DNA from: Spirochaetota bacterium
GTDB taxonomy: Bacteria; Spirochaetota; UBA4802; UBA5550
DNA length: 64,000 nucleotides
Direction: 5' to 3'
NCBI GenBank assembly: GCA_025457915.1
Contig: JALOTL010000001.1
Location: 227,022 to 291,021 of the forward strand
Shown in pieces: positions 201 through 63,165 of the stretch. A program made the position numbers and the translations under genes. How positions within the stretch are numbered: the first letter of the stretch is position 1; each line of letters starts with the position of its first letter. The notes beneath the pieces were generated by a model. That model searched no databases, was not told the DNA's origin, and saw only the letters and a program-made list of their open reading frames with translations.

Positions 201-240
201 GCATCCTTTTTTCAAACGGCCACCCGATCAATTATTTTTT

Positions 241-350
241 GGCACCTCAATAAATATGTTTTTTATTAAACTACTGAAAAGATTTAATTTATATATTTAA
301 AGTGCCAACAATGAAAAATTCTGATTTGATTATTAGAGGTTCCCTTATTA
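241..350 (-). repeat. Dispersed MITE-like intergenic repeat, copy 1 (short form, inverted)
   Basis: Reverse complement reads AAGGGAACCTCTAATAATCAAATCAG...TATAAATTAAATCTTTTCAG...TTATTGAGGTGCC, matching copies at 10.5, 57.8 and 62.9 kb. Confidence 0.8.
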
Positions 351-924: not shown

Positions 925-2514
925 ATGCCGGCAAGATCCAAGAAAAGCGAAGATTGCATATTTGTAATAGATGCTGGGACCCAGTCGATACGCGCTGCGA
1001 TTGTTGACCTGAAGGGAATTATCAGGGACATCGTAAAAACCCCGATTCAGCCTTATTATTCTGAAAAGCCCGGATGGGCCGAACAGGACCCTTCTTATTA
1101 CTGGAGGGTTTTATGTGATACCTCCCGCCGGCTAATGAAGAAAACGGTATTCGACGCTAAATCGATTAAGGGCGTTACGTTGACCAGCCAGAGAAACACG
1201 ATGGTCAATGTCGATAAAAACGGCACACCTTTGAGACCGGCGATAGTCTGGCTGGATCAGCGAAAAGCCGAGGTTGGGGAATGGCCCGGTTTCGCTACAA
1301 GATTGGGGTTGAAGGCCATCGGGCTGCTGGATGCCGCTCACCTTTCAATCAGGGAATGCGAGGCAAACTGGATCAAGCAGAACCAGCCCGGGGTCTGGAG
1401 TAAAACCCACAAGTTTCTTTTTCTTTCCGGATACTTCAATTACAAGCTGACCGGCGAATTCATCGATTCAACAGGTAACATGCCCGGATACGTGCCGTTT
1501 GATTTTAAAAATCATGCCTGGGCGAAAAAATCAGATATTAAATGGAAGATGTTCCCGATAGAAGAATCCAAGCTTTTCAAACTCGCAAAACCCTCGGAGC
1601 TTTTAGGTTATATAACGAAGACTGCATCGAAGGAAACGGGCATACCGGAACGACTCCCGGTAATCGCGGCCGCGGCCGATAAAGCCTGCGAGGTTCTCGG
1701 ATCGGGCTGCCTGACTCCTGAAATTGCCTGTCTCAGCTACGGCACAACCGCTACAATAGAAACAACCAACTCTAAATTTATCGAAATAGTCCCCTTTATC
1801 CCTCCCTGGCCCAGCGCCGTGCCCGGTGCTTACAACACCGAGGTTATGATATTACGCGGCTACTGGATGGTAAGCTGGTTCAAGCAGGAGTTCGGACTGA
1901 GGGAAGAGATAATTGCGAAAAAAAGAAAAATAGCCCCCGAGGCCCTTTTTGACGAAATGATCAGGGATATACCCCCGGGCTCAATGGGGCTCACACTGCA
2001 GCCGTTCTGGTCGCCGGGAGTAAAAATACCCGGTCCCGAAGCCAAAGGGGCAATTATCGGTTTTGGAGACGTTCATACCAGGGCTCATATATACAGGGCC
2101 ATTATCGAGGGACTTGCTTATGCGTTAAGGGAAGGCATGATAAGGACTGAAAAGAAAAACAACGTGAAGATAGAAAAAATCAGGGTTTCCGGAGGCGGTT
2201 CTCAGAGCAGGGCGGCAATGCAGATCACAGCGGACGTTTTCAATCTTACCGCTGAGAAACCGCATACCTATGAGACTTCCGCACTGGGGGCTGCCATAGA
2301 CGCCGCTGTGGGCCTGAAGCTTTATCCGGGCTTCAGGGAGGCCGTCAGGGAAATGACGAGGGTGGGAGAGGTTTTTGAACCGATACCAGCTAACAGGGAC
2401 ATTTACAACCAGCTCTTTGAAGAGATTTATCTGAAGATGTATGACAGGTTGGTTCCATTTTATCAAAAGATAAGGGATATAACCGGTTATCCGCCAAAAT
2501 ATAAGAAGAAATAA
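925..2514 (+). CDS. FGGY-family carbohydrate kinase (glycerol/xylulose kinase-like)
   Basis: FVIDAGTQSIRAAIVD N-terminus, PGWAEQDP motif, IRVSGGGSQSRAAMQITADV FGGY C-terminal motif. Confidence 0.92.
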   Translation: MPARSKKSEDCIFVIDAGTQSIRAAIVDLKGIIRDIVKTPIQPYYSEKPGWAEQDPSYYWRVLCDTSRRLMKKTVFDAKSIKGVTLTSQRNTMVNVDKNGTPLRPAIVWLDQRKAEVGEWPGFATRLGLKAIGLLDAAHLSIRECEANWIKQNQPGVWSKTHKFLFLSGYFNYKLTGEFIDSTGNMPGYVPFDFKNHAWAKKSDIKWKMFPIEESKLFKLAKPSELLGYITKTASKETGIPERLPVIAAAADKACEVLGSGCLTPEIACLSYGTTATIETTNSKFIEIVPFIPPWPSAVPGAYNTEVMILRGYWMVSWFKQEFGLREEIIAKKRKIAPEALFDEMIRDIPPGSMGLTLQPFWSPGVKIPGPEAKGAIIGFGDVHTRAHIYRAIIEGLAYALREGMIRTEKKNNVKIEKIRVSGGGSQSRAAMQITADVFNLTAEKPHTYETSALGAAIDAAVGLKLYPGFREAVREMTRVGEVFEPIPANRDIYNQLFEEIYLKMYDRLVPFYQKIRDITGYPPKYKKK

Positions 2515-10544: not shown

Positions 10545-10653
10545 GGGAGCCTATAATAATCAAATCAGGATGTTCCCTTATGGACAAATTCAATATATAA
10601 ATTAGATTTTTTCAGTGGTTTTGTAATAATAAATCTAATTTACAGAGGTGCCC
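10545..10653 (+). repeat. Dispersed MITE-like intergenic repeat, copy 2 (short form, candidate empty site for the nested insert)
   Basis: GGGAGCCTATAATAATCAAATCAGGATGTTCCCTT...TATAAATTAGATTTTTTCAG...AAATCTAATTTACAGAGGTGCCC. Confidence 0.85.
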
Positions 10654-40657: not shown

Positions 40658-40768
40658 CTCTAACTGCTATCCCATCTCCCGGACATATTCCGCTGGAATT
40701 GGCACCTTTTCATAAAAAGAATGGTTGCCGTGACTTCTATGGGCCAGTCCCTCAGTCACTCTTGATAA
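40640..40768 (-). ncRNA. SAM-I (S-box) riboswitch upstream of metX
   Basis: Minus strand: ATCAAGAGTGACTGAGGGACTGGCCC ... CGGCAACC ... AGGTGCCAATTCCAGC ... GGGAGATGGGATAGC. Confidence 0.95.
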
Positions 40769-41064
40769 GATAATTGAATGAGCCTATAGTTTCACTGCTT
40801 GCTTGTGTCAATGAAAAAATTGAGTTTGAATTATTATGTTAACAGGCCGCATTTCTGCTGATTTTTGCGGTAATATTGTGATTGGATTTTTTTTAACGAT
40901 GATCGTTCAATTATCTCATCATGACGAGGCAGCGGATAATTATTTGGAGATGAAAAATGAATTTTAGTGTAATTTTGTTGACATTAATAAACATGGCTTA
41001 GATAAAGGTAGGCAACTAGCTATTGTTGCTGCATATTTTTATCCAATCAAACAGGAGGACTCCT

Positions 41065-57767: not shown

Positions 57768-57985
57768 GGGAACCGCTAATATTCAAATCAGGATATTCCC
57801 TTGCGGGCACTTTCAATGTTTAAATCAGGGCGTTTACAAAAACCAGCTTTTTCATTTTAAAACTAATTAAAGGCTGGTTTTTTTTCTAGCGCCCTATGGT
57901 AGGAACAAAAACGGTTTTTTTTGTGATCACCCATTAGTTTTTTTCAGCGGATTTATTATGAAAAAACTAATTTATATATGCGCCC
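57768..57985 (+). repeat. Dispersed MITE-like intergenic repeat, copy 3 (long form)
   Basis: GGGAACCGCTAATATTCAAATCAGGATATTCCCTT...GGCGTTTACAAAAACCAGC...GTGATCACCCATTAGTTTTTTTCAGCGG...ACTAATTTATATATGCGCCC. Confidence 0.88.
57838..57885 (+). terminator. Hairpin AAAAACCAGC...GCTGGTTTTTTTT inside repeat copy 3
   Basis: 10-bp stem and T tract, downstream of 54052..57762. Confidence 0.65.
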
Positions 57986-61807: not shown

Positions 61808-62905
61808 ATGAAACTAAAAAAAAGTGTGTTTATAATATCAGCGGGTTTTTTTATTGCCGCCTCTTTGAATTCAGGCTCCTTGCCGGCACAGGATGCATCG
61901 GCGTATGACTGGTATGACTATCAGCCCGAACAGAAAAGCATAAAGACGGTCAACGGGAAATTTTATGCCTACATAGTCCTTCTTTTTAATGAAAATCCGC
62001 ATTTCGTCAACATCATACAGAAGGATACTATTCCTTTAAAGGTCATCGGCGACGAGGGCTTCCATATTAAGGCGTACAAATCATATCTCAACACCCTCAG
62101 GGATGGCCCCATGGGAAAATTAGCCCAGCAGATGCTTGCCGTCTACCTGGAACCAACGAAATACAATGATTCACATCTTGCTGAAATCGAAAACGCCCTA
62201 GTCAAATACAATATCATATTAAGATTCTCAAAAGATAAGAATTCCGGCAGCGACAGGATCATCCTGGATTACTGCATTTTCGGAAAAAAAGTCCAGGTAA
62301 CCGTCAAACACCCTCTTTTTGAAATCAGGGAAAAAATTTACAACATCCAGCCATTCATCTACTACGATGAATTCTCAACCAGTAATTCAACGTTTTATTT
62401 CAACATGATATACATCAACCCGGATGAGGTTAACAACGATTATATTATCGCTAAAAGAATAATAAACGGCGAAAACGTCAATTCGATGTTTTTTGTGGGG
62501 TCGAGGGTCACTGAAAACATGAGATACTGCCTCCAGCGGTCTTTCAGGGACAAGAAGTCGATCAAGGAAGAGATATGGAAAATGTTCGCAATACATGAGC
62601 TTACCCACAAGGTACTGAACAATAAATATAATTGTTTTGACCAGGTGACGGGAGAGGAGCTGTCACTTTCGGGCACGATCTACTATAATCCCTTCCTTGG
62701 CCTTTCGATACTGTACAGCTATCTGAACTACAATTCAATCAACCCGCACAGGGTTGCCGCGGTTAATTTCATCAAGTTCGTGGCGGAAAGGCAGGGGAAA
62801 AACGAGATGGTCGCAAAACCAGGCCTTTTGAAAAACATGACAGAATCCGAACTGAGGACCATGGCCAGGGAACATTTTAATTTTATGCTTGAAAAGGTGA
62901 AATAA
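61808..62905 (+). CDS. Secreted putative zinc metallopeptidase with HELTH motif
   Basis: Signal peptide; KMFAIHELTHKVLNNKYN contains HExxH. Confidence 0.7.
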   Translation: MKLKKSVFIISAGFFIAASLNSGSLPAQDASAYDWYDYQPEQKSIKTVNGKFYAYIVLLFNENPHFVNIIQKDTIPLKVIGDEGFHIKAYKSYLNTLRDGPMGKLAQQMLAVYLEPTKYNDSHLAEIENALVKYNIILRFSKDKNSGSDRIILDYCIFGKKVQVTVKHPLFEIREKIYNIQPFIYYDEFSTSNSTFYFNMIYINPDEVNNDYIIAKRIINGENVNSMFFVGSRVTENMRYCLQRSFRDKKSIKEEIWKMFAIHELTHKVLNNKYNCFDQVTGEELSLSGTIYYNPFLGLSILYSYLNYNSINPHRVAAVNFIKFVAERQGKNEMVAKPGLLKNMTESELRTMAREHFNFMLEKVK

Positions 62906-63125
62906 GGGAACCTCAAATAATCAAATCAGGATGCTTCCTTGTGGGCACTTTCAATGTATAAATTAGGGCGGTCACAAAAACCAGCTTTTTCATTTTAAAA
63001 CAAACAAAAACTGGTTTTTTCAACACTAGCGCCCTATGGTAGGCACAAAAACGATAGTTTTTGTGATCAGCCATTAGATTTTTTCAGCGTTTTTATCATG
63101 AAAAATCTAATATATTGAGGTGCCC
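62906..63125 (+). repeat. Dispersed MITE-like intergenic repeat, copy 4 (long form)
   Basis: GGGAACCTCAAATAATCAAATCAGGATG...TATAAATTAG|GGCGGTCACAAAAACC...GTTTTTGTGATCAGCC|ATTAGATTTTTTCAG...AAATCTAATATATTGAGGTGCCC. Confidence 0.9.
62967..63072 (+). mobile_element. Nested ~106-bp insert in repeat copy 4, flanked by ATTAG direct repeats
   Basis: Left end GGCGGTCACAAAAAC, right-end reverse complement GGCTGATCACAAAAAC; ATTAG at 62962-62966 and 63073-63077; copy 2 lacks the insert and has one ATTAG. Confidence 0.65.
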
Positions 63126-63165
63126 ATAATTAATAATCTTAATAAGGCCGTTTAGAAAAGAAAGT

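Follow-up and report, generated by a model that had tools for sequence, protein, structure and literature searches.

The repeat at positions 62906 to 63125 of the window (the whole 64-kb stretch of DNA analyzed here) is a copy of a new MITE family, element A, which is an ordinary kind of mobile repeat with an odd, asymmetric target. In its long form, A carries another MITE, element B, inserted at ATTA. We put at roughly 0.8 the probability that A is a noncoding MITE whose movement depends on an IS5-family DDE transposase acting in trans and that B is a second such MITE.

A is a high-copy-number intergenic MITE

The earlier note had reported four copies of a dispersed, MITE-like element with TIRs in the window. 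The GGG...CCC spans agree with the places given for them, copy 1 lying on the minus strand (Table 1), and a model search of the window recovered these four A loci and no further strong one. The end sequences claimed for copy 4 are present, namely, GGGAACCTCAA and, reverse-complemented, GGGCACCTCAA, as is ATAA on either side. Copy 4 does directly follow a stop codon, the TAA falling within the 5′ ATAA.

Table 1. Features of elements A and B in the 64-kb window
Feature	Position	Strand	Details
A element, short form, copy 1	about 240-344	-	own-strand flanks ATAA / AAAA
A element, short form, copy 2	10545-10653	+	flanks AAAA / ATAA; model search 106.8 bits, E 2.4e-19
Hairpin H1, copy 2	10545-10577	+	GGGAGC ... 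GTTCCC; from alignment
H1/H2 spacer TTAT, copy 2	10578-10581	+	
Hairpin H2 with inner hairpin H3, copy 2	10582-10653	+	GGACAA ... GTGCCC
A element, long form, copy 3	57768-57985	+	flanks ATAA / GTAA
B element nested in copy 3	57828-57932	+	flanks ATCA (57824-57827), ATTA (57933-57936)
ATAA, 5′ target word of copy 4	62902-62905	+	includes TAA stop of ORF 61808-62905
A element, long form, copy 4	62906-63125	+	
B element nested in copy 4	62966-63072	+	flanks ATTA (62962-62965), ATTA (63073-63076)
ATAA, 3′ target word of copy 4	63126-63129	+	

The host assembly is a MAG of 3.66 Mb in 50 contigs, 96% complete. The genome-wide search that had been proposed as a check yielded dozens of further copies, above chance: 51 matches with copy 4 as the query (best other copy, E 1.6e-84) and 49 with a short-form query. 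With duplicates removed, these searches give 55 distinct A copies, fragments included. Fifty-three copies are complete and bounded at both ends, 29 of them short (107 to 114 bp) and 24 long (192 to 227 bp). As had been claimed from the window, A is intergenic and without coding capacity: by a simple ORF caller, none of the 53 bounded copies lies within an ORF of at least 80 amino acids. By the same caller, the neighboring genes are divergent at 25 of these copies and convergent at 6. The elements are 66% A+T, compared with 55% for the window. A falls within the MITE size range (70 to 300 bp), is noncoding, and occurs in many dispersed copies; it is a MITE by every defining feature tested here.

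A sits mostly at ATAA, and empty sites can be read

Insertion of A can be read directly at several loci. In one relative (G012), an A copy is itself occupied by A, with ATAA on both sides of the insert (L051), and an unoccupied A copy in the same genome has a single ATAA (L033). The gene preceding copy 4 has an ortholog in 39 of 45 relatives, and comparison of these orthologous sites, also proposed earlier, showed no full A after that gene at any inspected locus except our own. In G025, a mini copy that consists of just the two A ends (about 34 bp) directly follows the stop codon of the ortholog (L350; ORF ending at 2487), at the position equivalent to that of copy 4, and is missing from the congeners L351 and L357; it probably represents an independent use of the site. 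Wherever the comparison is readable (L051 versus L033, B in A versus short A copies, and G025 versus its congeners), the occupied site is longer by the element and a further 4 bp. High copy number, empty sites, nesting of A in A, and transposases between matching ends in relatives (see below) bear out the description of A as a dispersed MITE-like element.

The flanking words are strongly biased. The 5′ and 3′ words are identical in 27 of the 53 bounded copies of the host, ATAA accounting for 37 of the 53 at the 5′ side and 41 of the 53 at the 3′ side; in relatives, 69 of 97 copies have ATAA at both. TTAT is essentially never found at A ends, so that ATAA is nearly always in one orientation, whatever the genus. 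Two A copies have matched TTAA/TTAA flanks, and in several host copies the 5′ word is at least two changes away from ATAA with the 3′ word usually still ATAA. The suggestion that the ATAA pair at copy 4 is a target duplication thus stands in part: empty sites back a 4-bp ATAA duplication, but the words are fixed in sequence and orientation and do not vary freely. A symmetric DDE dimer is expected to give TTAT as well as ATAA, and the single orientation of ATAA runs against this prediction.

Hairpins of A covary across genera and its TIRs do not

The consensus of A reads ATAA / GGGAACCTCTAAAAAT ... GGAT GTTCCC TTGT GGGCAC TTTCAATG ... H3 ... TTTTTAGAG GTGCCC / ATAA, with the ends GGGAACCTCTAAAAA... 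and ...TTTTTAGAGGTGCCC. Because the terminal sequence is repeated internally (GTTCCC-TTGT-GGGCAC), two folds are possible: hairpins H1 and H2 side by side, H2 enclosing H3, or end-to-end pairing of the TIRs. Both were evaluated on 31 sequences from across genera. The TIRs have 15 paired columns, with 80% of cells paired and one near-constant A-G mismatch, and showed no covariation (2 double changes, 3.0 expected). H1 to H3 showed 56 double changes, compared with 19.4 ± 4.2 after shuffling (0/500), and their pairing was lost once the partners were slid. H3 supplies most of the covariation, and H1 and H2 contribute one clear case each; in H1, GGGAAC/GTTCCC becomes GGAAAC/GTTTCC. These hairpins were chosen by reading the sequences and covariation was tested afterwards, so the measure of cells paired favors them. 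RNAalifold run on the alignment returned just one hairpin, a short one at the center that pairs GTTCCC with GGGCAC, and A folds stably on both DNA strands (z of -5.8 to -7.7). Covariation of the hairpins across genera without covariation of the TIRs is an unusual feature, not required of a purely TIR-driven MITE.

Covarying hairpins, an intergenic location, and strands that both fold stably (z about -6 to -8) would also be expected if A were a fixed structured RNA or a transcription terminator or attenuator under selection, its repeats being regulatory copies. We consider this very improbable, since A is not kept at the orthologous locus tested, is flanked by duplicated target words, is nested in A, and belongs to no Rfam family. 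No Rfam 15 match covered A, either in the window at the gathering threshold or for two copies by E value, and the modeled strand of the three hairpins has no excess of G-T over A-C, giving no pointer to a transcribed plus strand; a structured RNA was ruled against on these two results. A terminator scan found no intrinsic terminator at copies 3 or 4. The same Rfam-level comparisons recorded a SAM riboswitch elsewhere in the window (40669 to 40771, minus strand), above its gathering score, and a match resembling the cspA thermoregulator in a relative (G005, L047, 1830 to 2248), below it (44.6 versus 78 bits, E 3.5e-9).

IS5-family elements in relatives have the ends of A and B

The earlier note had recommended a search for a transposase gene between matching termini, and such genes, of the IS5 family, were found in three relatives (G035, G011, and G003). 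Of the 46 genomes, 21 contain the end pattern GGGMACYTCTAAAAA (a reversed-pattern control gave 3 matches), and some of its matches bound a gene. One locus in G035 (L172) is a complete IS, GGGAACCTCTAAAAATTAA ... AAATTTTTAGAGGTTCCG, which lies between two TTAA words and has A-like ends (left, GGGAACCTCTAAAAATT; right, inverted, CGGAACCTCTAAAAATT). Its transposase of 339 amino acids matches NF033581 (IS5_4) with 256.8 bits against a cut-off of 140, as well as DDE_Tnp_1 and DUF772. A homologue in G011 (L200), a genome rich in A copies, has the ends GGGGGCTTCTAAAAAC and GGGGACTTCTAAAAAC and is likewise bordered by TTAA left and right. IS remnants that share the left end are present in G023 and in A-bearing G012. 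IS5 relatives of a third branch, in G003, have B-type ends (GGGCGGTCACAAAAAC and GGGCGGTGATAAAAAC) and TTAA on both sides, and two further G003 copies have ATAA or ATAT beside the left end. The ends of these elements thus provide a matching IS5-family IS for A and another for B. A different, sister MITE in G022 and G032 has the same left TIR as A, and about half of its bounded copies are flanked by matched, varying 4-bp words (TTAT, ATTA, ACAA, and AAAA), which is what a DDE transposase would leave.

Several other loci in relatives carry related sequences. An IS5-type IS with B ends (L325, G003:C104) has an upstream flank that resembles an A-type hairpin (GAACCTCGAAGAATT...GTGGTTCCC). In G033 (L169, contig C1), a sister element has the two-hairpin plan and a 3′ ATAA, with its inner hairpin in H1, not H2. 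In G024 and G033, GGGAACCTCTAAAAA lies at a nearly constant distance of about 65 to 85 bp from many contig ends, a spacing that suggests a multicopy element breaking the assemblies.

According to the model that we favor, an IS5-family DDE transposase would recognize the ends of A in trans and would have placed the element at ATAA words in AT-rich DNA between genes, duplicating 4 bp of target. B, broadly similar in type but with ends GGGCGGTCACAAAAAC..., would be served by a sister IS5 group. No DDE_Tnp_1 match was found in the host MAG, and ISs are often lost in assembly; we infer that the elements are mobilized in trans and that the transposase source has since been lost. The A copies in the host genome are probably decaying now. 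Five observations count against the IS5 model: the lack of DDE_Tnp_1 in the host, the oriented ATAA, the non-ATAA 5′ words, the covariation of the hairpins but not of the TIRs, and the uncorrelated distances of A and B described below.

Some of these observations would be accommodated if a Y1/HUH transposase of the IS200/IS605 or RAYT type moved A in single-stranded form. The hairpins would then be the substrate and the upstream ATAA an oriented target, the 3′ ATAA being borne by the element, so that no true duplication would exist. ATAA is indeed oriented and nearly invariant on both sides, hairpin covariation is strong, several copies combine a non-ATAA 5′ word with a conserved 3′ ATAA, and Y1 genes are present in 41 of 45 relatives. 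Nevertheless, both termini of A match IS5-family ISs, and matched words flank two A copies (TTAA/TTAA) and, in varying form, the sister MITE. The orientation of A is unbiased with respect to GC skew (23 of 53 copies positive), giving no sign of a replication-strand bias. The only Y1 gene of the host is a RAYT gene amid a different palindromic repeat, and A and B are absent from the 50 Y1 loci scanned. We therefore regard movement by a Y1/HUH enzyme, and this account of ATAA and the hairpins, as quite unlikely. An HUH/RAYT origin was rejected after PF01797 had been searched for in the host genome and 45 relatives; the 50 loci showed neither A ends nor B ends. The host RAYT gene (L103, G000:C20:54486-57635; gene at 1123 to 1782, minus strand) has palindromes, AGGCGCCGATTCGAATCGGCGCCT, all around it, and its reading frame contains one of them.

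We also think it unlikely that A and B form a hybrid class in which a folded double hairpin (H1, 4 nt, H2) is required beside IS5-type ends and the target ATAA is read one way, before the left end.

In the long form, one MITE sits within another

Short and long forms both exist, as the earlier note had stated, but the long form proved to be a nested second MITE and no mere length variant. All 24 long copies share a block of about 105 bp, with no difference in its site or orientation; 2 of them have deletions within it. The block is the complete element B, GGGCGGTCACAAAAACC ... GTTTTTGTGATCACCC, flanked by ATTA, and the preinsertion state of its site is seen in the short A copies. B also occurs alone: the host genome has it in L025, with ATAT/ATAT flanks, and in diverged form in L100, and it is found in G036, which belongs to a different family of the order.

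Among the long copies, variants in the A arms are linked with variants in B (12 column pairs, compared with 1.3 ± 1.6 after permutation; 0/200), and in 10 of 24 the 5′ copy of the duplicated ATTA alone carries a T-to-C change (ATCA). The linked variants and the one-sided changes indicate that the composite has been inherited and spread as a unit. B would have inserted into one A copy at ATTA, once within the host lineage, and the A+B composite, keeping its outer A ends, would have multiplied as one piece while the short form did so too. Distances between copies in the A arms and in B showed no overall correlation in the long copies (Mantel r 0.10, P = 0.27), a result that fits a near-star burst or else marks some independent events.

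The uncorrelated distance matrices, together with the lower divergence of B than of the A arms of the same copies (0.12 versus 0.17), could instead point to many independent insertions of B at one site of many A copies. This seems improbable to us given the linkage of A and B variants, the one-sided ATTA change common to 10 of 24 long copies, and the identity of site and orientation in 24 of 24.

A is spread across an order of Spirochaetes and resembles known repeats in plan

A covariance model found A in 24 of the 46 genomes of the order, an uncultured group of Leptospira-side Spirochaetes, with 1 to 77 matches each (77 in G025, 59 in the host genome, and 42 in G011), one long copy being able to give more than one match. 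Among GTDB species genomes, the core pattern GGATGTTYCCTTGYGGGCAC matched 14 stretches, and 13 of these are MAG contigs with a recognizable A, truncated in one case, mostly labeled Spirochaetes or Leptospiraceae. The remaining match, in Asaia, was dismissed as a chance match, the rest of the element being missing. The open papers searched on MITEs with Leptospira or spirochaetes contained no earlier description of the family.

The likeness of A to RUP, Correia/NEMIS, and ERIC is one of plan only. RUP of Streptococcus pneumoniae, about 107 bp long with about 110 copies per genome, is a MITE thought to be mobilized by IS630-Spn1 (PMC2229807). Like A, it is small, intergenic, and noncoding, with ends matching an autonomous IS and a short fixed target; it differs in its partner (IS630 versus IS5), in its target (TA versus ATAA), and probably in sequence, and no nested long form is described in that paper. 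Correia/NEMIS elements of Neisseria likewise have TIRs, structure, and short and long forms (107 and 155 bp) with an extra internal block in the long one. That block is 50 bp long and includes an IHF site (PMC2229807), whereas the block in A is an entire MITE in its own right, with TIRs and a duplicated site of its own. The pneumococcal BOX, RUP, and SPRITE elements insert into one another (PMC3049150). REP/BIME repeats and their RAYT systems share with A extragenic hairpins and a tetranucleotide beside the stem (PMC3733652), but A has ATAA in place of the GTAG/CGTC tag, no RAYT gene adjoins its copies at the 50 Y1 loci scanned, and its ends match IS5.

Members of the IS5_4 group (NF033581) share with A the TIR sequence at both ends, a 4-bp duplication, and insertion into AT-rich intergenic DNA; unlike them, A and B have no transposase gene, and the word of A is ATAA in a fixed orientation. 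E. coli IS5 duplicates Py-T-A-Pu (PMC5493358). The TTAA of the ISs found here fits this rule, but the ATAA of A and the ATTA or ATAT of B do not strictly do so.

Together, these data describe a MITE family that spans the order, and its likely IS5 partners, for a group without any MITE family in the literature searched. They also give a clear, well-documented example of one MITE lodged in another and spread as one composite. If the hybrid reading were true, mobility would be both TIR type and hairpin guided. The oriented ATAA and the covarying hairpins raise the question of whether an IS5-type transposase or a host factor reads the target asymmetrically or makes use of DNA hairpins.
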